From assembly GCF_010974825.1 (NCBI RefSeq), contig NZ_JAAILA010000012.1, positions 1 to 64,000 of the forward strand: a stretch of DNA of 64,000 bases, read 5' to 3'. Under the pieces are notes generated by a model. It had not been told where the DNA came from. It did not search any database and worked only from the letters and a program-made list of their open reading frames with translations. The position numbers were made by a program, and so were the translations under genes. How positions within the stretch are numbered: the first letter of the stretch is position 1; each line of letters begins with the position of its first letter. This document shows positions 28,992 through 38,451 of this stretch, piece by piece. The stretch comes from Aeromonas rivipollensis (GTDB taxonomy: Bacteria > Pseudomonadota > Gammaproteobacteria > Enterobacterales > Aeromonadaceae).

Positions 28992-29019
28992 ATTTAACAT
29001 AATATACATTATGCGCGGT
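28992..29019 (-). other. Chromosome dimer resolution site dif
   Basis: Read on the minus strand, this 28-bp site is identical to E. coli dif in 25 positions. The XerD arm TTATGTTAAAT and the 6-bp centre TGTATA are perfect. The XerC arm is ACCGCGCATAA against GGTGCGCATAA. XerC and XerD recombine here to resolve chromosome dimers at the septum under FtsK control. FtsK polar motifs on both sides point to it. Confidence 0.95.
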
Positions 29020-29112
29020 TATATATGAAGGCGACTGGCGGGCATATTTTCCCGCCATATAACGTTTGGCATATACGCTGGGTAGCACTTTGCGCAGTCT
29101 GCGTACAGGCAC

Positions 29113-30390
29113 TCATTCATGCAGGCGATCCAGCGGCTTATGGTTGGCACTCTCGTGGCGTTCGCTGTTGCCGGTGTGCAGGTATTTGGAGGTGGTGTCT
29201 ATGCTGTCGTGTCCCGCGTCTGCCTGTACGTGTGACAGTGGCCGGCCATGCAGGTTGATGTCGTGGGTGATGCCGGTATGGCGGATGGAGTGCGGCGTCA
29301 GGGTACGCATCTCGGCGGCATCCTGGGCAAAGCCATCTTGCTCGGCCAGGCTGGCCGCTTGCTCGAAGACCGCCATCACCAGATCCCGCAGTTGGCGGAT
29401 GCCGAGATTGGCATTGAGCTCGCCTTGCTCCCGGCCATGGGCCGCCGCCCTGTGGCGCACGAAGAGCGGCGTCTGTTCGCCCGGGGCTGGCAGCGGCGAG
29501 AGCCCAAGAAAGGTACGATAACGTGCCAAGGCATCCAGCAGCGCCTGGGAGACGGCCACGGTACGGCGTTTGCCGCCCTTGCTGCGTGGAATGTCATAGC
29601 CCCAGACCCCAGTCTTGCTGTCGCGGCGAAACTGGCTCATGACGGGGCTGAAGCCCGGTCTGGCCGCCACCTCGGAGATACGCAGATAACAGGCGTACAT
29701 GAGGCAGATGAGAAAACGGCTGCGCTCATGCTGGGCCGGGCATTCGGTTGCCAGCCGCTCGGCAGCCTGCATCACATAGGACCATTGCAATTCGGTAAAG
29801 GACTGGGCCTCTTCACCGACATCCTGGCTGTCTGGCCGTTTCACCCGTTGCAGCAGGAGTGCCGGATTGCGGTCCATGTACTCCTCCTGGATCAGGAACT
29901 GGAAGAAGGCCGACAGTATGGCGAGCTTGGTCTTCATCGCCTGCTCGCTCAGACGGTATGGCAGCTCGCGGCCCAGTTCCCGCTTGCCGAGAAACGGTCG
30001 CCACAAGGGGTTGGGCAACCGCTCTCCCCACTCCTTGTCGAGCACGAACTGGGCCACGTTTCGGTATGCGATAAGCCCTTGTGGCGGAGCCTGGCAGTAG
30101 TCGAGGTAGCGCATCATGATGCGCCTGGTGAGATCCTTGGGGCTGATGGCCACCTCGCAGAAACACCAATGCAGGAAGGTGGTCAGCTCGCTGCGGTAGG
30201 TCTTGTAGTTGTTCTCGCTGTGGCGTTGCTCCAGCAGCCAGTCGACGGCCAGCTCATAGACGAGGCCGGCATCGGGTACATTGCCCAGGCTGAGAGTGGC
30301 CAGATACTGGTTGACCTGGGGATTGCCCGCCTCCAGATGGAGCAGATTATCGAACAACGGCATGGCGGGTGGCAGTGACGGATGAGTCAT
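29113..30390 (-). CDS. Tyrosine recombinase (integrase), dif-adjacent
   Basis: 425 residues from MTHPSLPP. A core-binding helical domain is about residues 35-175 and the catalytic domain about 195-410. All active-site residues are present: R237 (YLRISEV), K271 or K274 (SKGGKRR), H367 and R370 (HSIRH), H394 (AGHDSID) and nucleophile Y403 (TSKYLH). The frame is open 47 codons further upstream, but that would place an upstream inverted repeat inside the gene, so the later start is preferred; no strong ribosome site is seen. It ends 94 bases from dif. It is not obviously XerC or XerD, and its site is unknown. Confidence 0.88.
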   Translation of the reverse strand: MTHPSLPPAMPLFDNLLHLEAGNPQVNQYLATLSLGNVPDAGLVYELAVDWLLEQRHSENNYKTYRSELTTFLHWCFCEVAISPKDLTRRIMMRYLDYCQAPPQGLIAYRNVAQFVLDKEWGERLPNPLWRPFLGKRELGRELPYRLSEQAMKTKLAILSAFFQFLIQEEYMDRNPALLLQRVKRPDSQDVGEEAQSFTELQWSYVMQAAERLATECPAQHERSRFLICLMYACYLRISEVAARPGFSPVMSQFRRDSKTGVWGYDIPRSKGGKRRTVAVSQALLDALARYRTFLGLSPLPAPGEQTPLFVRHRAAAHGREQGELNANLGIRQLRDLVMAVFEQAASLAEQDGFAQDAAEMRTLTPHSIRHTGITHDINLHGRPLSHVQADAGHDSIDTTSKYLHTGNSERHESANHKPLDRLHE

Positions 30391-30440
30391 GATGGTGCTT
30401 GTGAGTCTTGTTGAGTGAAGCTGGCTCGGCGCCGCGCAAT

Positions 30441-30474
30441 CCTGATGCCGATAAATGGGGTTATCGGCATCAGG
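30441..30474. repeat. Perfect inverted repeat upstream of the first recombinase gene
   Basis: 14-bp arms, CCTGATGCCGATAA and its complement, flank the 6-base centre ATGGGG. The inner CGATAA-N6-TTATCG matches the repeat upstream of the second recombinase gene. Geometry is that of a Xer-type core site; it could equally be an operator. Confidence 0.85.
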
Positions 30475-30678
30475 GGATGCCAGATGGCCCGGGGATGAGT
30501 CGTCAAGGCTTCCCTGGCGGACCGCGGACACTATGGTATATGGTGTTTATTCAATGACTATGCAGTCTTGTTGGAAATTTCTCGGGGTAAATAGCGACAA
30601 AAATGACTGAAAATGGACTCTTATTGAATATTGTGGGGCGGAAGCCAGGGTTGGACGCCCTGCCCCGCCCTTATTCTG

Positions 30679-30984
30679 TCAGGCCACGCTCTTGAGGGAT
30701 TTTCCCTTGGGCTTCTCGGTATCCACCTTCTCTTCCTTGGGGCTGATCCCCTGCCCCTTGCCACCGCGCAGCACGTTTTGCAGCAGATCCCGCTGCTCGG
30801 CCAGGTAAAAGGCGAGGCTCTCCTGCTGCTCGGGTGCCAGCTGAACCGGTGCCCCGGCCAGCAGCGTCATCAGTTCATCGGCGGTATCCAGCAGCTTGTC
30901 ATAGGCATCCGCCTCTTTCTTGCTGGTAAAGGTCATCTTCTCCACTCCCCCACGCACGACAACATACTTGATCTCAACGGCCAT
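30679..30984 (-). CDS. yebG: SOS-induced protein YebG
   Basis: 101-residue protein matching E. coli YebG through MAVEIKYVVVRGGVEKMTFT, SKKEADAYDKLLDTADEL and a LAEQRDLLQNVL segment, then a variable lysine-rich tail. Its function is unknown, but it is a LexA-regulated gene in E. coli. The start has a strong AAGGAGGA ribosome site. A LexA-like box lies 36 bases upstream. Here it sits between a recombinase gene and letA, whereas in E. coli it is near purT. Confidence 0.93.
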   Translation of the reverse strand: MAVEIKYVVVRGGVEKMTFTSKKEADAYDKLLDTADELMTLLAGAPVQLAPEQQESLAFYLAEQRDLLQNVLRGGKGQGISPKEEKVDTEKPKGKSLKSVA

Positions 30985-31019
30985 AGTGGCGTCCTCCTTA
31001 TGATAGTGACTGCAAGTAT

Positions 31020-31035
31020 ATGTATGAATATACAG
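31020..31035 (-). promoter_or_regulatory. LexA box of yebG
   Basis: Minus strand reads CTGTATATTCATACAT, close to the SOS consensus CTG-N10-CAG with the usual alternating TA core; only the last triplet departs (CAT). Confidence 0.75.
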
Positions 31036-31240
31036 TGTTGCAAATAACACTCGGGATCCGCCACCGCGCCCATCACTGCATCATCTCCCCCTGGTCCGGC
31101 AACCGTGTTCAGTGTTTCTCTCTATGGCCCAGCGGGTTGCCCGGCCAGGCTATCTTTTCTTGGTCAGAGGTTTCGCTCCGGCAAGACAGCGAGGGCGTTT
31201 TAGGGTAAATTTTATCAATTCCTTCAACAGGTTGAATCGT

Positions 31241-31885
31241 ATGTCGGATCCCCACTCCGTGATCGTCTGCCCGGCGTGTGACTTGCTGATCGAACGCAAG
31301 CTGCTGCCCCTGCGTCGTCACGCCCATTGTCCGCGCTGTCACCAGCATCTCTATGGGCGCTATGCTTTTCGTCCTTCCCAGCTGATGGCCCTCACCATCA
31401 CCGGCTTCCTGCTGCTCCCTTCCGCCTTCTTCGAACCCCTGCTCTACCTGCGCCTGGCCGGGGTCAACTCCGATGCCAACCTGCTCAAAGGCATCCTGAT
31501 GCTGTTTGAGGAGGGGGAACTCTGGGTGGCGAGCCTGGTGCTCTGGTGCGCCGTGCTGGCGCCGGCGGGGTTGCTGCTCGGCATCTTTGCGCTTGCCTCC
31601 GGCCTTGCCAAGCGCTGGCACATGCTGGCCCCGACGCTCAAGGCCGTGGAGGTGTTCCGGCACTGGGCCATGCTGGAGGTCTACATCGTCAGCCTGATGG
31701 TCGCCCTGTTCAAGCTCATCGACATCGCCGACGTGCGTCTGGGGGGCGGTCTGCTTAGCCTGGGGATATTGATGCTGCTCAACATGACGCTGCTCATTCT
31801 CTTCGACCCCGCCCCCTACTGGGAGCGGATACCGCTGCACAACGCCTCGCAGGAGCCGGATCATGATACCGACCAGCGCCCGTGA
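31241..31885 (+). CDS. letA: PqiA-domain membrane protein, LetA N-terminal half
   Basis: 214-residue inner-membrane protein. The zinc-ribbon-like motif CPACD...CPRCHQ at the N-terminus precedes about four transmembrane helices. It corresponds to the first half of E. coli LetA (YebS), the inner-membrane partner of the LetB lipid-transport bridge. Unlike E. coli, the second half is a separate gene that overlaps this one by 23 bases. Start at MSDPHSVIV. Neighbours letB and rsmF confirm the locus. Confidence 0.88.
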   Translation: MSDPHSVIVCPACDLLIERKLLPLRRHAHCPRCHQHLYGRYAFRPSQLMALTITGFLLLPSAFFEPLLYLRLAGVNSDANLLKGILMLFEEGELWVASLVLWCAVLAPAGLLLGIFALASGLAKRWHMLAPTLKAVEVFRHWAMLEVYIVSLMVALFKLIDIADVRLGGGLLSLGILMLLNMTLLILFDPAPYWERIPLHNASQEPDHDTDQRP

Positions 31886-32471
31886 ACTCGGGCTCTGCCG
31901 CTGCCACACCTGCGGCCTGCTGGTGCGCTACCAAAGTGCCATGAGCTGCCCTCGCTGCCACAGCCCCCTGCAGATGCGGATACCCCGTTCGCTCGCCTGG
32001 TCATGGGGCCTGCTGGCGCTCGCCACCTTCATGCTGCTGCCCGCCAATCTGCTGCCCATCACCCACTTCTACAACAAGGGATTACTGCAGTCCGATACCA
32101 TTTTCAGCGGTATCATGGCGCTCTATCGCAGCAAGATGTCGGGCATCGCCACCATAGTGCTGACCGCGAGCATCATAGTCCCCATCGGCAAGATACTGGG
32201 GCTGGGCTGGATCTGCTGGCAGTTGCAGCGCAGCAAGCCGGTGCGGCGCAAGCGTCAGCTCATCATGTATCGCATCATCGATTTCATCGGTCGCTGGTCC
32301 ATGCTGGACCTGTTCGTGATCTCGCTGATGGTGGCCCTGGTGGATCGCGGTGTCTTGCTCAACGTGCGGGCCGGGCCAGGGGCAACCGCCTTCGCCGGCG
32401 TGGTGATCCTCACCATGATGTCGGCCCGGATGCTCGACACCCGTCTGCTGTGGGACAAGGCGGCCCGTTAA
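31863..32471 (+). CDS. PqiA-domain membrane protein, LetA C-terminal half
   Basis: 202-residue inner-membrane protein with its own zinc-ribbon motif (CRCHTC...CPRCHS) and about four helices. The conserved LLPANLLPITHF segment and DFIGRWSMLDLFVISLMVALV are typical of PqiA domains. It starts inside the end of the preceding gene with a good AGGAG site seven bases upstream. The two polypeptides together equal E. coli LetA and probably form one unit with LetB. Split forms are common in Vibrio relatives (from memory). Confidence 0.88.
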   Translation: MIPTSARELGLCRCHTCGLLVRYQSAMSCPRCHSPLQMRIPRSLAWSWGLLALATFMLLPANLLPITHFYNKGLLQSDTIFSGIMALYRSKMSGIATIVLTASIIVPIGKILGLGWICWQLQRSKPVRRKRQLIMYRIIDFIGRWSMLDLFVISLMVALVDRGVLLNVRAGPGATAFAGVVILTMMSARMLDTRLLWDKAAR

Positions 32472-32526
32472 TGCATTTTTTCTGTATCGGATGTGCTGTG
32501 CATCACAGCCAATTTAAGGAGTCGCT

Positions 32527-35079
32527 ATGATCGGGGCTGAACCCGTCATTGAGAAACATCGCTGGTTATCCCCAGTCTGGTTGTTGCCCTTCATCGCCCT
32601 CTTGCTGGCGGGTGGTTTCATCTACCAGCAGTGGACGAGCAGCGGTCAACTCATTCGCATCAACTTTGCCCAGGGCAACGGCATCTTGCCGGGCAAGACC
32701 CAACTGCGTTATCAGGGGGTGGCCATAGGGGTGGTCCAGGATCTGGAGCTGGCACAGGACGGTCGCAAGATAGCCGTGCTCGCCAAGGTCGACAGCCGCG
32801 CCCGCCCGCTCATTCGCAAGGGCTCAGACTTCTGGCTGGTGAGCCCCAAGGCCTCCCTCACCGAGATCTCGGGTCTAGATACCCTGGTCTCCGGCAACTA
32901 CATCAATCTGCAACCCGGTCGGGACAACAACCCACTGGAGGACGAGTTCGATGCCCTGGACGGTCCTCCCCCCGGCTACCAGGCCCAGGGGCGCACCCTG
33001 CACCTGACCGCCGACTCTCTGGGGTCGGTCGGCATAGGTGCCAGGATCTACTTCCGCGGGCTCGAGGTCGGCAGCGTCATCAATACCCGCCTGGGAGAGG
33101 ATAACCAGAATGTGATCCTGGATCTGGTGATAGAGCCGCGCTTCGAGCACCTGGTCAAGGTGGATACCCGCTTCTGGAATATCAGCGGCATCAAGGGCTC
33201 CTTCAGCCTGGCCGGTGTCAGCGTGGAGGCTGGCAGCCTCACCTCAATATTGAGCGGCGGCATAGCGTTCGACTCCCCCAAGGAGTCGCCCGTCGCGCAG
33301 AAGGGGCTCAATTTCACCCTCTATAAAGGGCTGGCCGAGGCGGCCCGGGGCGAGCGCATCAGCATCCAGGCGGGAGATCTGCCAGTCAAGGAAGGCATGC
33401 CCATCCTCTATGAAGGGATAGAGATTGGCAGGATAGACCCCATTCGCCTGACCGAGCAAGGCCGGGTCGTCACGGCGCTGATCAACCCCGAGCAGGCATT
33501 TCGAATGACCGGCAAGAGTCGTCTGGTCTGGGAGACTGTCTCCCTCTCCCCCACCGGGGTCAAGCACGCGGATCGCCTGCTGGCCGGACCGGCCATTCGT
33601 CTCGACTATGTGGCAGGTGAAAAGGTCAGCACCATGGCGCTGGCGAGCCAGGAGCAGCGCGATGGCATCAAGCTGACCCTGCAGGCGGACGATCTGGCCG
33701 GCTTGAACGAGGGCGCCCCGCTCTGGTTCAAGGGGTTGCAGATAGGCCAGCTGGGGGCGCTGACCCTGGATGGCAGCGGCAATGCCAGCGTCAGTCTGGT
33801 GGTGAACGAGGGTTATCAGCACCTGCTGAAGCGGGCCCGTTTCTATCGCGCCTCCCCCTTGCAGGTGCAGGCCGATCTGAGCGGCCTCAAGGTGGAGACC
33901 AGCCCGGCGAGTGCCTGGCTGGCAGGTGGGGTCAAGCTGGTCCAGGCCACCGGGGGGGAGCGTATCGACCGCCTCTACCCCAGCCAGGAGCTGGCCCTGC
34001 TCGGCAGCCGTGATGCAAGACCCGAGCACTGGACACTGCGCGCCGAGCAAGCGGATGGGATAGGCGTAGGCTCCCCCGTCCTCTATCTGGGGCTGGAAGC
34101 GGGCAAGGTCAAGGCGTTGAAAGCCGAGGAGCGCGGGGTGGCCATCACCCTGGAGATAGACGCCGTCTACGCCCCCCTGCTCAAGCAGCAGCCCCAGTTC
34201 TGGAAGAAGGCGGCCATCGACGGCAAGATCCGGCTCGACGGGGTGCAGGTCAAGATGGGCAACCTCGCCACCCTGCTTCGCGGCGCCATCGAATTTGACC
34301 GGCTCGGCACCGGCCGCAGCAGTCATCAGCTGTTTGACAGCAAGGAGCAGGCCAGCACCCAGGTGCGCACCCTGACCCTGACCGCCGACAGCAACCCCGG
34401 GCTCGGGGTGGGCAGCCCCATCCGTTATCGCGGGGTGGACATCGGCAAGGTGGAGCAGATTGAACTGGATCCCACCCTGGGTCAGGTGAGCTTCAGGGCC
34501 GAGCTGGATGGGCAGTACGCCGCCCGTTTCCTGCAGAGCGGAGCGCGCTACACCCTGGTGCAGGCCAAGCTCGGGCTGGGGGGCGTCTCCCACCTCGACA
34601 CCCTGATCAAGGGCGCCTTCGTGGAGGCAAGCCCGGGCCAGGGCGCGGGCAAGGAGCGCTTCCCCCTGAGCCAGAGCACCCCCATCGGATTGGCCCTGAC
34701 CCTCAAGAGCCCCTCCGTCAGCGGCATCAGCGTCGGCAGCCCCCTGCTGTTTCGCAAGATGGTGGTGGGTAGCGTCAGCGGGGTGGCGCTGGCCCGGGAT
34801 GGCAGCGAGGTGCTGATCGAGGTGAACGTCGCTCAGGAATACGCCCACCTGGTGCGCGCCAACAGCCGCTTCTGGAACGTGTCCGGGGTCAAGGCCGACA
34901 TCGGCCTGACCGGCGGCACCATAGAGGTGGAAACCGTGCAGAGTCTGCTGACCGGCGGCATCGCCTTCAACACCCCGGATCGGGAGATGGGGCCGACCGT
35001 CAAGGCCGGCCACCACTACCCGCTCTATGGCAAGGCGGAGAAGGAGTGGCTGGAGTGGAGCCCCCGCATCCAGCCCTGA
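32527..35079 (+). CDS. letB: Intermembrane lipid transport protein LetB (seven MCE domains)
   Basis: 850-residue protein with an N-terminal transmembrane anchor (WLLPFIALLLAGGFIY) and seven MCE repeats, each with a G.P(V/I).Y(R)G...G type motif: LPGKTQLRYQGVAIG, IGARIYFRGLEVG, KEGMPILYEGIEIG, NEGAPLWFKGLQIG, GVGSPVLYLGLEAG, GVGSPIRYRGVDIG and SVGSPLLFRKMVVG. In E. coli, LetB (YebT, 877 residues) forms a seven-ring tube across the periplasm that carries phospholipids. A strong AAGGAG site precedes the ATG. Confidence 0.96.
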   Translation: MIGAEPVIEKHRWLSPVWLLPFIALLLAGGFIYQQWTSSGQLIRINFAQGNGILPGKTQLRYQGVAIGVVQDLELAQDGRKIAVLAKVDSRARPLIRKGSDFWLVSPKASLTEISGLDTLVSGNYINLQPGRDNNPLEDEFDALDGPPPGYQAQGRTLHLTADSLGSVGIGARIYFRGLEVGSVINTRLGEDNQNVILDLVIEPRFEHLVKVDTRFWNISGIKGSFSLAGVSVEAGSLTSILSGGIAFDSPKESPVAQKGLNFTLYKGLAEAARGERISIQAGDLPVKEGMPILYEGIEIGRIDPIRLTEQGRVVTALINPEQAFRMTGKSRLVWETVSLSPTGVKHADRLLAGPAIRLDYVAGEKVSTMALASQEQRDGIKLTLQADDLAGLNEGAPLWFKGLQIGQLGALTLDGSGNASVSLVVNEGYQHLLKRARFYRASPLQVQADLSGLKVETSPASAWLAGGVKLVQATGGERIDRLYPSQELALLGSRDARPEHWTLRAEQADGIGVGSPVLYLGLEAGKVKALKAEERGVAITLEIDAVYAPLLKQQPQFWKKAAIDGKIRLDGVQVKMGNLATLLRGAIEFDRLGTGRSSHQLFDSKEQASTQVRTLTLTADSNPGLGVGSPIRYRGVDIGKVEQIELDPTLGQVSFRAELDGQYAARFLQSGARYTLVQAKLGLGGVSHLDTLIKGAFVEASPGQGAGKERFPLSQSTPIGLALTLKSPSVSGISVGSPLLFRKMVVGSVSGVALARDGSEVLIEVNVAQEYAHLVRANSRFWNVSGVKADIGLTGGTIEVETVQSLLTGGIAFNTPDREMGPTVKAGHHYPLYGKAEKEWLEWSPRIQP

Positions 35080-35101
35080 TGTTCCCCTGACCCTTTGACC
35101 C

Positions 35102-35133
35102 AAGCCCGGCCCAGCGCCGGGCTTGTTCGTTTT
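35102..35133 (+). terminator. Intrinsic terminator after letB
   Basis: AAGCCCGGC pairs with GCCGGGCTT around CCAG, with tail GTTCGTTTT. It lies in the frame open ahead of rsmF, supporting a later rsmF start. Confidence 0.75.
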
Positions 35134-35208
35134 GCCCATCGCCCATTCAGAATATTCCGACCCCTGTGGTACTATGTCGCCCCTCTTTTGGGTCAGCGAG
35201 ACGGCACT

Positions 35209-36639
35209 GTGCACGACAATACCTACCTTCCCGAACACTTCCTGCGTCATATCGCGGACATGATGCCGGCCCATCTCTCCATGGATGCGTTCGTGGCGAG
35301 CTGTCGGCGGCCGCTGCGGCGCAGCATCCGGGTCAACACCCTCAAGATCTCTGTGCCCGACTTCGTGACACGCATGGCGCCACTGGGCTGGCAGCTGGAT
35401 CCCGTGCCCTGGTGCGAGACCGGCTTCTGGCTGACCCGTGCCGACGAGAGCGTGCCCCTTGGCAACAGCGCCGAGCACTTGTGCGGCCTCTTCTACATCC
35501 AGGAAGCGAGCTCCATGCTGCCGGTGACGGCGCTCTTTGCCAGCGAGCGGATAAAGCACGATGGCATGCTGCTGGATGCGGCGGCGGCGCCCGGCTCAAA
35601 GACCACCCAGGTAGCGGCCCTGATGGACAACCAGGGCATGCTGGTCGCCAATGAGTTTTCCAGCAGCCGGCTCAAGGTGCTGAGCGCCAATATCCAGCGC
35701 TGTGGCGTGACCAATGTGGGCATGACCCATTTCGATGCCAAGGTATTTGGCCAGTGGTTGCCGGAAACCTTCGATGCCATCCTGCTCGATGCCCCCTGCT
35801 CGGGGGAAGGCACAGTACGCAAGGATGAAGATGCCCTGCGCAACTGGAGTCTCGAGAGCATCGAGGAGATTGCCGCTGTGCAACAAGGCCTGCTGGAGAG
35901 TGCCTTCCACGCCCTCAAACCCGGCGGCGTGCTGGTCTACTCCACCTGCACCCTGAGCCTGCAGGAGAACCAGACGGTCTGTCAGTCCCTGCGAGACAAG
36001 TTCGGCGACGCCCTGAGTGTCGACTCCCTGGCCGACCTCTTCCCCGGTGCCGAGCAGGCCTGTACCCCAGAGGGTTACCTGCATGTCTGGCCCCAGATCT
36101 TCGACAGCGAGGGCTTCTTCGTCGCCAGGATCAGCAAGCATCACTCAGTACCGAACACCATGTTCAAGCCGGGCAAGCTCGGCAAATTCCCCTTCTCCCC
36201 GCTGCCGGCGAAAGAAGCCGAGCCCATGTTGCACGAGATTGAGGCGAGCTTCGGGATAGTTCCGCGCGGCCAGCTGTGTGGCCGTAATGACGAGATCTGG
36301 CTCTTCCCTCACGCCTTTGAGCAGGTGCAGGGCAAGCTGCGCTTCGATCGCATCGGCATCAAGCTGGCGGAAACCTTCAAGAAGGGTTATCGCCTCACCC
36401 ATGAATGGGCGCTGGCTTACGGAAGTCTGGCCACCCGGGGATGTGTCGAGCTGGATGCCGCCAACGGGCGTGAATTCATGATGGGACGGGATGTCTGGCC
36501 CGAGCTGGCTCCGGGAACGGGGGAAGTGATCGTCCGCTATCAGGGACATCCGCTTGGAATGGGGAAATGGGTGGGGAGTCGCATCAAGAATGCCCTGCCC
36601 CGTGAGCTGGTGCGGGACAACAACTTGTTCAATGAGTGA
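35209..36639 (+). CDS. rsmF: 16S rRNA m5C1407 methyltransferase RsmF
   Basis: 476-residue SAM-dependent enzyme that methylates C1407 of 16S rRNA. The catalytic core shows CRRPLRRSIRVNTLKIS, AAAAPGSKTTQ and the two cysteines of m5C methyltransferases in DAPCSGEGTVRKD and STCTLS. The C-terminal region carries a PUA-like segment (VGSRIKNALPRELVRD). The GTG start (VHDNTYLPEHFL) was chosen to match homologues; the frame is open 38 codons upstream across a terminator hairpin. Follows letB as in E. coli. Confidence 0.95.
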   Translation: MHDNTYLPEHFLRHIADMMPAHLSMDAFVASCRRPLRRSIRVNTLKISVPDFVTRMAPLGWQLDPVPWCETGFWLTRADESVPLGNSAEHLCGLFYIQEASSMLPVTALFASERIKHDGMLLDAAAAPGSKTTQVAALMDNQGMLVANEFSSSRLKVLSANIQRCGVTNVGMTHFDAKVFGQWLPETFDAILLDAPCSGEGTVRKDEDALRNWSLESIEEIAAVQQGLLESAFHALKPGGVLVYSTCTLSLQENQTVCQSLRDKFGDALSVDSLADLFPGAEQACTPEGYLHVWPQIFDSEGFFVARISKHHSVPNTMFKPGKLGKFPFSPLPAKEAEPMLHEIEASFGIVPRGQLCGRNDEIWLFPHAFEQVQGKLRFDRIGIKLAETFKKGYRLTHEWALAYGSLATRGCVELDAANGREFMMGRDVWPELAPGTGEVIVRYQGHPLGMGKWVGSRIKNALPRELVRDNNLFNE

Positions 36640-36738
36640 GATGTCGGCGGCCATTTCAAGGACTGACACCTGTTCGAGTCTGGAAAACCCACACTCTGGT
36701 TGAACTTTTAGTCACTTCTTGAAATGCCTCGCGCCTTG

Positions 36739-36749
36739 TCTAAGCTTAA
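36739..36749 (+). promoter_or_regulatory. Sigma-S type extended -10 for sdsR
   Basis: TCTAAGCTTAA matches the sigma-S consensus KCTAYRCTTAA in 10 of 11 positions, just before the predicted 5' end of the SdsR RNA. Confidence 0.75.
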
Positions 36750-36836
36750 GGCAATCCGCATATCAATTAGCGCACGGCTCTGCAAGGAGCCAATTCCCCT
36801 ATGCCAGGTACAAGGAATTCGTACCTGGCTTTTTTT
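36750..36836 (+). ncRNA. sdsR: Small regulatory RNA SdsR (RyeB/SraC)
   Basis: About 87 nucleotides. The conserved core TTAGCGCACGGCTCT, the stem closing with GGAGCC, and AATTCCC match E. coli SdsR (TTTAGCGCACGGCTCT...AGAGCCATTTCCC). A terminator stem, GCCAGGTAC with GTACCTGGC and seven T, ends it. SdsR is an Hfq-dependent, sigma-S controlled RNA abundant in stationary phase. It lies just downstream of rsmF; in E. coli it is also in the letAB-rsmF neighbourhood. Confidence 0.88.
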
Positions 36837-36851
36837 ATGTCCCCTCGCCGG

Positions 36852-37109
36852 CTATTCGCCGATCTCTACGAGCGCTTTCTCCGGGTGCCCCTGGGGTACC
36901 AGCTCGTGCTGATAGAGCAAGTCGATCGCCTGCTCGATGAGGGAGGCCTGGTTGTCTTCCAGATGCTGACCGAGCTCCTGCAACCGCTCGGCGTGGCGAT
37001 TGCTGATCCAGCATTGCAGCCTGCTGTGGGTTTCCTGCTTGCGTTTCACGTGTTGGCGTTGCCGCTCGGCATTGTCTTGCACCACATTCATCTTCATTTC
37101 CTGGCTCAT
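36852..37109 (-). CDS. Small protein with possible ribbon-helix-helix fold
   Basis: 85 residues. Very polar N-terminus (NAERQRQHVKRKQETHSRL), then CWISNRHAERLQELGQHL and EDNQASLIEQAIDLLYQHEL, a strand-helix-helix pattern like small ribbon-helix-helix DNA-binding proteins; the tail is acidic. AAGG lies five bases before the ATG. It lies between sdsR (convergent, 15 bases away) and a dif-like site and recombinase gene. No terminator follows on its strand, so its transcript would run antisense through sdsR. A regulator role is inference from fold pattern only. Confidence 0.65.
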   Translation of the reverse strand: MSQEMKMNVVQDNAERQRQHVKRKQETHSRLQCWISNRHAERLQELGQHLEDNQASLIEQAIDLLYQHELVPQGHPEKALVEIGE

Positions 37110-37144
37110 ACGACCTTGCTAACTAAGAGAGTGGAACTTGTTAT

Positions 37145-37202
37145 CTCTCACCCTCTGCTAGACCAGGGGCGCCGGAATGACACTCCCCTGTAGGGGTGAG
37201 AG
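37145..37202 (-). promoter_or_regulatory. Structured leader upstream of the small ribbon-helix-helix gene
   Basis: Nested inverted repeats: outer CTCTCACCC with GGGTGAGAG, inner CAGGGG with CCCCTG. It starts 36 bases upstream of the gene start and could fold in either strand's RNA. No known RNA class recognised. Confidence 0.5.
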
Positions 37203-37300
37203 CCGCCGTCTGTGCCAGGCTCTTTTCCCTTCATGGTACTGACGCTTCACCGGCACTGCTTCGGAGGGCGATAAATATATCATCAAATCAATCAGATGGT

Positions 37301-37330
37301 ATTTAACATAAAAAACAACGTGGCGCGGTT
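37301..37330 (-). other. Degenerate dif-like site next to the second recombinase gene
   Basis: ATTTAACATAA (perfect XerD arm complement) followed by a diverged centre and GCGCGGTT, the same outer sequences and orientation as dif at 28992-29019. The spacing is one base longer and the inner XerC-arm bases TTAT are lost (now CGTG). It ends four bases from the recombinase stop codon. Confidence 0.7.
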
Positions 37331-37333
37331 ATC

Positions 37334-38362
37334 TTACAGCAAGCCTGCGAGGGCATGATCGGAGAACTTGTGCGCATCGTCGAAATACTCCTGCAGGGTA
37401 CGCATGTCCTTGTGCCGTGTCACCTCGATGATCTTGTTCATGGGCTTGCCTGCGGTCACCGCCGAGGTGATGAAGCCTCGGCGCAGACTGTGGCCACTGA
37501 CATAGAGATCGTCGATGACCTGGCCGGTTCGCCGCTTGATCATCAGGTTGATGCCTTGGGGCCCGAGTGGCTCAGCGGTGAGCTGCCCCCAGCGGGTCAT
37601 GCGGCGAAACAGCGGTCCCTGGCTTATGCGGCTTGCATTCAACCAGCGGCTGAGGGCGGTTACCGGGCAATACTGCTTGCCGGGAATGAGTGCTATCTCG
37701 GTTTCATGGAGCTGATGTTTGCTCGGCTTGAGCCGAAGCCTTATCCCCTGCCCCACGAAGTCGAGATCGCCCACCTCGATGCGAGCCGCCTCCGAACGGC
37801 GCAGGGCGCCGCTGAACATCAAGAGCAGCAAGGTGTGATCCCGCAGCCCCGCCAGGGTGGAGGTGTCTATCTCGTCGAGCACCCGGGTCAGGGGTTGCAG
37901 GGTCAGGGCTCCCGTCTTGCGTTTGCGATTATCACCGAGGCGCACTATGCCCCGCATCATCTCCTTTATTTCCGCATGCTCGGTCGGCATGGGATGAATC
38001 CCCTTCTGCTTGAAGGCATAGCGGATACCGGCGAGCCGCCTCACCAGGGTAGCCGGTTTTCGTGGCTCCCCGTTACGCAGCTCCCCCTTCCCCTCCTCTT
38101 TATCCAGCCATACCCAGTCCGCCAATATGCCGTCGGCCTGATCCGCCAGAAAGTTCATGATGTCGTGATGGCTAGTCTGCAGCGGATCCAGCCCATGCAA
38201 CTGGCACCAGAATACGAAGATACGGGTATCGGCCTGATAGGCATTGAGGGTGGAATCCGCTTTCGCGCTGCGCAGGAAATGCCGCGCCCGATTATTGAGC
38301 GCAGGATCGAATACAGTCTGCAATGACTGATGAGCGGGTGGTGAAATGGTTGGATAGGCCAC
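37334..38362 (-). CDS. Tyrosine recombinase (integrase), dif-like-site adjacent
   Basis: 342 residues from a GTG start; a stop codon lies three codons upstream, so it cannot be longer. N-terminal core-binding domain is about residues 20-140, catalytic domain about 150-335. Catalytic set: R188 (GALRRSEAAR), K215, H291 and R294 (GHSLRRGF), H317 (TRHKDM), nucleophile Y326 (LQEYFDDA). The short C-terminus after the tyrosine recalls Cre-like enzymes. No ribosome site is obvious, suggesting low expression. Unrelated in length and sequence to the recombinase near dif. Its target site is unknown. Confidence 0.88.
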   Translation of the reverse strand: MAYPTISPPAHQSLQTVFDPALNNRARHFLRSAKADSTLNAYQADTRIFVFWCQLHGLDPLQTSHHDIMNFLADQADGILADWVWLDKEEGKGELRNGEPRKPATLVRRLAGIRYAFKQKGIHPMPTEHAEIKEMMRGIVRLGDNRKRKTGALTLQPLTRVLDEIDTSTLAGLRDHTLLLLMFSGALRRSEAARIEVGDLDFVGQGIRLRLKPSKHQLHETEIALIPGKQYCPVTALSRWLNASRISQGPLFRRMTRWGQLTAEPLGPQGINLMIKRRTGQVIDDLYVSGHSLRRGFITSAVTAGKPMNKIIEVTRHKDMRTLQEYFDDAHKFSDHALAGLL

Positions 38363-38421
38363 GTAAGTCTATGATTCTATATGAAGTTTAGCAGGATCTT
38401 ACAGGATCTTTCAGATCCATC

Positions 38422-38451
38422 AAGTATCGATAATGAATATTATCGATACTT
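38422..38451. repeat. Perfect inverted repeat upstream of the second recombinase gene
   Basis: 12-bp arms, AAGTATCGATAA and its complement, flank TGAATA (or 13-bp arms around GAAT). It shares CGATAA-N6-TTATCG with the repeat upstream of the first recombinase gene. Two direct copies of CAGGATCTT (38392-38400, 38402-38410) lie between it and the gene. Confidence 0.85.

Follow-up and report, generated by a model that had tools for sequence, protein, structure and literature searches.

In the XerCD/dif, XerS/difSL and XerH/difH systems, a tyrosine recombinase is paired at the terminus with a palindromic core site of two arms around a 6-bp centre, and both difSL and difH can adjoin the genes of their recombinases, as described in an earlier report (PMC2731167). 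In Cre/loxP-type systems the recombinase also has a lox-like palindrome nearby, and SCre of a Shewanella plasmid recombines its site SloxP, according to an earlier report (PMC4957104). The locus analyzed here is located in a 64,000-nt stretch, referred to as the window, of contig NZ_JAAILA010000012.1 from Aeromonas rivipollensis (assembly GCF_010974825.1, 4.53 Mb genome). It includes the chromosomal dif site, an adjoining gene for a tyrosine recombinase (recombinase A) and a lox-like palindrome (PAL) upstream of this gene, and the window contains a second tyrosine recombinase (recombinase B) with a palindrome of its own. A comparative analysis has revealed that A, PAL and dif are linked in many genomes, and A and PAL are very probably a recombinase and its core site. 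In the titles and first lines of abstracts listed by searches of the open-access literature, neither a dif-adjacent recombinase with its own palindrome nor inoviruses carrying such a palindrome were found described; the subscription literature may describe the pair.

Results

Recombinase A and the PAL palindrome

The features of the A locus are the following (positions in the window):

28992..29019, minus strand: chromosomal dif (XerC/XerD site), 3 mismatches to the E. coli-type pattern
29113..30390, minus strand: recombinase A, 425 amino acids, tyrosine recombinase (PF00589, catalytic hexad)
30441..30474, no strand: PAL, lox-like palindrome CCTGATGCCGATAA-ATGGGG-TTATCGGCATCAGG, proposed core site of A
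30679..31050, minus strand: yebG open reading frame with YebG domain, start uncertain, conserved neighbor on the far side of PAL and A

The length of recombinase A was counted from the ATG at 30390, and its reading frame stays open further upstream. The protein scored 48.2 bits against PF00589 (cut-off 27.1), which places it in the tyrosine recombinase superfamily, and the six catalytic residues R-K-H-R-H-Y were invariant in all 72 proteins of its family. PAL has perfect arms of 14 bp and a 6-bp spacer. The motif CGATAA-N6-TTATCG, common to PAL and the palindrome of B, was observed twice in the window versus 0.00 expected from 100 shuffles, so that a chance origin was ruled out. In the whole genome it was present in only those 2 places, one upstream of each recombinase, and a control pattern gave 0 matches; a general repeat was thus discarded. 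The minus-strand recombinases with complete catalytic sets and the perfect inverted repeats upstream, described in a first-pass annotation of this DNA, were all found, the repeats being longer than had been noted.

The distribution of A and PAL was determined in 37 Aeromonas genomes and in 295 genomes drawn from the order, with proteins of at least 55% identity considered as A orthologs and, in the 295-genome set, those below 45% as distant homologs. The order-wide and viral scans were carried out with a 24-bp form of PAL, TGCCGATAA-N6-TTATCGGCA. An A ortholog was present in 49 of the 295 genomes, with only weaker homologs in another 30. The 24-bp form was found in 44 of these 49 genomes versus none of the other 246 (Fisher test, p about 3e-47, which ignores the relatedness of the genomes), and within a single genus (g7) it was detected in 10 of 11 genomes with A and in none of 9 without it. 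Three of the five A-bearing genomes missing the 24-bp form (G002, G012, G024) have a shorter one.

A scan of named genomes yielded at least 117 PAL loci; all 117 were analyzed and 80 are listed with names. Recombinase A was in view in 68 of them. PAL lay at most 102 bp upstream of the gene in 41 of these 68 and 3' of it in the other 27, at distances of up to several kb. Among the named loci, A was seen alongside PAL in Aeromonas, Shewanella, Parashewanella, Oceanisphaera, Oceanimonas, Zobellella, Marinobacterium and Neptunomonas. When dif was also in view (49 of the 68 loci), it was located 80-1589 bp from PAL: 1381-1589 bp in 28 loci with A in between and 80-1262 bp in the other 21. The arms of PAL were constant, and the 6-bp spacer varied by clade but was constant within clades. 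Short loci, phage-like loci and loci from unrelated bacteria are among the 49 in which A was not in view. Two Burkholderia loci (L275, L280) have the palindrome of PAL with another spacer and no A in view, probably with another role, and 37 Burkholderia plasmid records match the palindrome weakly (E 0.5 or worse). In five Shewanella loci (L241, L244, L248, L261, L289) the stretch of about 1 kb between PAL and dif has no open reading frame over 75 amino acids.

The A locus in Aeromonas

An A ortholog was found in 36 of the 37 Aeromonas genomes, in two pieces in G016; G013 gave only a weak cross-match, and its contig stops about 3 kb past PAL. The window's dif had exactly one match at up to 3 mismatches in 35 of the 37 genomes. 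PAL was upstream of A in 16 of the 36 A loci, each time with the spacer CCCCAT. In the other 20 loci it was located between A and dif (15 loci) or beyond dif (G030), A, PAL and dif were split over contigs (G001, G014), or PAL was not found at the locus (G017, G027). These counts and those for B below are the outcome of a check named in the first-pass annotation, by which a lack of the palindromes near orthologous recombinase genes would speak against its reading.

A map of yebG, A, PAL, dif and the neighboring gene beyond dif, which we take to encode a Lon-like protease, covers 31 of the 37 genomes. The order yebG-A-dif was kept on one stretch in 22 of them, with the protease gene in 19 of these 22. 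Departures from this order were G035 and G030 (a metagenome assembly); the other seven loci are spread over more than one contig, run into a contig end or lack A. The region 2028307-2104543 of G035 (L450, L452) shows a rearrangement by which A has come to lie 64 kb from dif and dif is reversed relative to yebG. The polarity of dif relative to A differs among relatives.

Homologs of A on other replicons and upstream boxes

Among the 30 genomes with distant A homologs, dif was found in 20, and in 13 of these it was at most 10 kb from the homolog. Three distant homologs of family f7 have in common another upstream palindrome, TCCGATATT-TGTG-AATATCGGA. That A is a gene of known phages was considered and discarded, as only 5 GenBank phage records matched, all below 60% identity and with the match extending over 80% or more of A in one of them.

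LexA-like boxes (15 or more matches out of 20) were found before 8 A genes with identities of 52% or higher and before 3 of the 9 distant genes, versus 0 in 3800 shuffles. None was found before A in the Aeromonas loci or in those named Shewanella. These counts leave out an artefact (L213), and about a dozen loci with the A start off the contig, mostly viral, are unreliable in this respect.

The 117-kb circular record pSbal01 of Shewanella baltica OS155 (L428, L438, L439, L440), listed as a plasmid, carries A and PAL among genes of chromosome type such as recBCD, zwf, pyk and uvrB. In the stretches examined, dif was not detected at up to 5 mismatches. With this content, the record provides no argument for a plasmid role of A and PAL. 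Two Vibrio plasmids of 293 kb (L430/L442) and 354 kb (L429/L443) both contain an A homolog of 52-54% identity and a B homolog of about 38%; neither the A nor the B palindrome was found nearby.

Inoviruses integrated at dif carry PAL

Many of the Aeromonas PAL copies that are not upstream of A are located in filamentous phages, or their remnants, at dif. These prophages are arranged as a hybrid dif on the left, phage genes and an intact dif on the right (G010, G036 and others), as dif-integrating inoviruses are, and the Rep and Zot-like families were confirmed for phage members in G010 and G036. To our knowledge, PAL has been reported in no described inovirus. The first-pass proposal that dif repeatedly captures recombinase units was not supported, the captured elements being inoviruses that carry the A-type palindrome.

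PAL is present in two phage types. In type 1 it spans the initial codons of rep, at about 740-830 bp from dif, and in type 2 (G036, G032, G007) it lies about 45-57 bp from dif. G036 harbors a single type 1 prophage and a tandem array of three of type 2, and every one of the four contains a PAL; in this genome, a 7.7-kb inovirus occurs in three tandem copies at dif (2216777-2239979; L157, L158). An A-side PAL and phage PALs were found together in G010, G007, G032, G036 and G026, and in the first four of these the A-side PAL and the PAL of the first phage form a direct repeat with identical spacers. A strict match between host and phage spacers was ruled out, since other phages have different ones.

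The scan of viral contigs with the 24-bp form yielded 65 stretches, of which many are short and contain dif arms. Thirty-one of 35 distinct phage rep starts contain PAL, and the remaining four are a related group missing a block of about 33 nt at this position, with both flanks aligned. For six of the seven rep codons covered by PAL, synonymous identity was 0.98-1.00, and for the remaining one 0.77 (38 of 53 loci used, the remainder having no N terminus). As similarly high values were found upstream, in a part with a second open frame, better evidence comes from whether the block is present or absent.

Recombinase B and its palindrome

The features of the B locus are the following:

37301..37329, minus strand: dif-like site 3' of B, with an exact XerD arm TTATGTTAAAT and a degenerate XerC half
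37334..38362, minus strand: recombinase B, 342 amino acids, tyrosine recombinase (PF00589, catalytic hexad)
38422..38451, no strand: palindrome AAGTATCGATAAT-GAAT-ATTATCGATACTT upstream of B, proposed core site of B

Recombinase B also belongs to the superfamily (49.9 bits against PF00589, same cut-off). In 40 proteins of its family, R1, K and R2 were present in all, H2 and Y in 39 each and H3 in 37, with W in the other three. No significant similarity between A and B was found, in agreement with the first-pass annotation, which had described them as unlike. B was detected in 35 of the 37 Aeromonas genomes, in two pieces in G025, and outside this genus only homologs of about 38% identity or less were seen.

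The B palindrome can be read as 13-bp arms with a 4-bp spacer or, in the same register, as 12 plus 6 bp, and it abuts a promoter-like sequence (read by eye). It was found upstream of B in 33 of the 35 Aeromonas loci; in the other two it is masked by N (L067) or decayed with the spacer kept (L071). The spacer reads TATTCA along B, and in one locus (L054, G031) it is reversed relative to the other Aeromonas loci. Three (L099, L101, L106) of ten B homologs have palindromes of their own upstream, and the 24-bp form of the B palindrome was present in 12 viral contigs. A second pair of recombinase and site, specific to Aeromonas, is probably formed by B and this palindrome, on weaker evidence than for A and PAL.

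A dif or dif-like site had been noted on the 3' side of each recombinase; A is the only one of the two that adjoins true dif. At the site 3' of B the 11-bp XerD arm is retained, exactly in 30 of the 35 loci. The XerC half of this site is degenerate, its length exceeds that of dif by one base, and it is not dif. In the 26 genomes in which a single contig holds B and true dif, they are 8.3-51.2 kb apart. In G036 (2189563-2200257, L156), B is separated from its dif-like site by genes that resemble a fimbrial operon by eye. Phage regions also contain dif-like sites that resemble the one 3' of B, with the XerD arm exact (G016 at 3095081, G026 at 37641, G032 at 200512 and 212777, G033 at 133980).

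Discussion

The pattern observed is the one expected for a recombinase and its core site: symmetric arms that stay constant, a short spacer that varies, an intact recombinase close by and nearly strict co-occurrence. PAL would consist of two identical half-sites around a 6-bp crossover region, built like dif or lox, and A and PAL would form a separate recombination system kept next to dif. The lox-like inverted repeat with a short asymmetric spacer near A has the layout of Cre/lox-type systems, and the single terminus site linked to a recombinase that of dimer resolution, with several PAL copies where phages are present. Since such single-site arrangements at the terminus are those of replicon-dimer resolution, the likeliest host role would be, by analogy with difSL and difH, an auxiliary resolution of chromosome dimers. 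The binding and recombination of PAL by A, its role in the host and its benefit to phages are inferred from sequence comparison, and the complete statement, that A is an active homotypic site-specific recombinase on PAL kept beside dif for functions including dimer resolution, is nearly balanced between acceptance and doubt, slightly on the side of doubt.

Several observations weigh against this interpretation. Neither a recombined PAL product nor binding of A to PAL was seen. The persistence of direct PAL repeats around A means that the reaction must be rare, controlled or absent. No PAL was found in the A-bearing genomes G027 and G258, A is 64 kb from dif in G035, and among the 20 distant homologs with dif found, three were unlinked to it, two were at 50-70 kb and another two were near a contig end with dif on another contig. 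Palindromes with the same core occur without A in unrelated bacteria (Burkholderia, Cupriavidus, Agreia, Sulfurospirillum), and PAL upstream of A may overlap the A promoter, which would fit an operator as well. PAL could indeed be an operator bound by A or by a regulator to control A, with phages drawing on the same regulator and no recombination at the site. The 41 of 68 loci with PAL close upstream of A, the promoter-like sequence adjoining the B palindrome and the palindromes without A are consistent with it, but a pure operator at the A promoter was ruled out by the 27 loci with PAL 3' of the gene, and the distances of up to several kb, the invariant catalytic residues and the constancy of the central 6 bp within clades, though arms alone would suffice for an operator, make this explanation unlikely also in its wider form. 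Similarly improbable is the reading of A as an integrase domesticated from an old mobile element that lands at the terminus, with PAL as its attachment site, now of no use to the host. Relatives of A were found on 1513 plasmid records, nearly all below 60% identity and including Tn4401-associated genes at 28%, Marinobacterium A is 68-70% identical to Aeromonas A, and the polarity of dif relative to A flips among relatives, all of which would fit such an origin. Against it, A is kept in all but one of the Aeromonas genomes with its hexad invariant, and no element bounded by PAL was found on the far side of A in the mapped loci.

The first-pass annotation considered both modules as units of one kind tied to the Xer/dif system. 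What stands of this proposal is that both appear to be recombinases with private palindromes and that unit A is tied to dif. That A and B are variants of a single unit, each acting on its dif or dif-like site and palindrome together, agrees with their common local layout and with the exact XerD arm 3' of B; the absence of similarity between the two proteins, the distance of B from dif, the remoteness of its homologs outside the genus and the inconstant polarity of dif relative to A render it highly improbable. Sequence analysis gave no evidence that A or B acts on dif.

Returning to A and PAL as recombinase and core site, dif-integrating phages would exploit this pair. The phage PALs are arranged as direct repeats, which could allow A to resolve multimers of the phage or to release phage units from tandem arrays, and A could also excise the DNA between the A-side PAL and the first phage PAL. 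In its widest and rather doubtful form, the proposal is that many gammaproteobacteria keep XerCD/dif and A/PAL side by side, and that inoviruses carry PAL so that A cuts single circles from tandem prophages, in some lineages perhaps on DNA damage. If true, A and PAL would be an exit for dif-integrated phages and a means for the host to trim terminus arrays, a second recombinase besides XerCD would take part in terminus upkeep in Aeromonas, Shewanella and relatives, where studies of dif would be missing a partner, and a family of recombinase-site pairs with clade-specific spacers would be defined.

Comparison with known systems

The A/PAL pair resembles the Xer systems in its tyrosine recombinase, its two-arm core with a 6-bp centre and its terminus location. 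Unlike them, A is far below the cut-offs of the curated XerC, XerD and XerS families (at most 63 bits versus 267-335; at most 48.3 bits for B), so that neither protein is an ortholog, and PAL is a perfect palindrome distinct from dif, with which A/PAL coexists. Both proteins also stay far below the integron integrase cut-off, with only a weak C-terminal similarity to IntI (26.3 bits versus a cut-off of 265). Like CTXphi-like and IMEX inoviruses, the phages beside A are bounded by a hybrid and an intact dif and have Rep and Zot-like genes; they differ in carrying PAL. With Cre/loxP-type systems, A/PAL has in common a recombinase with a lox-like palindrome nearby, although no Cre chain appeared among the matches of A and B in the Protein Data Bank up to E 10. 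SloxP, whose sequence matches a plasmid of Shewanella sp. ANA-3 at 34 of 34 positions, has the core CCGATAA-N6-TTATCGG in common with PAL. The Cre-like gene about 4 kb from it, taken to be SCre, encodes a protein not similar to A or B, and the common core would therefore be convergent or very old. SCre/SloxP belongs to a plasmid, whereas A/PAL is chromosomal and linked to dif.

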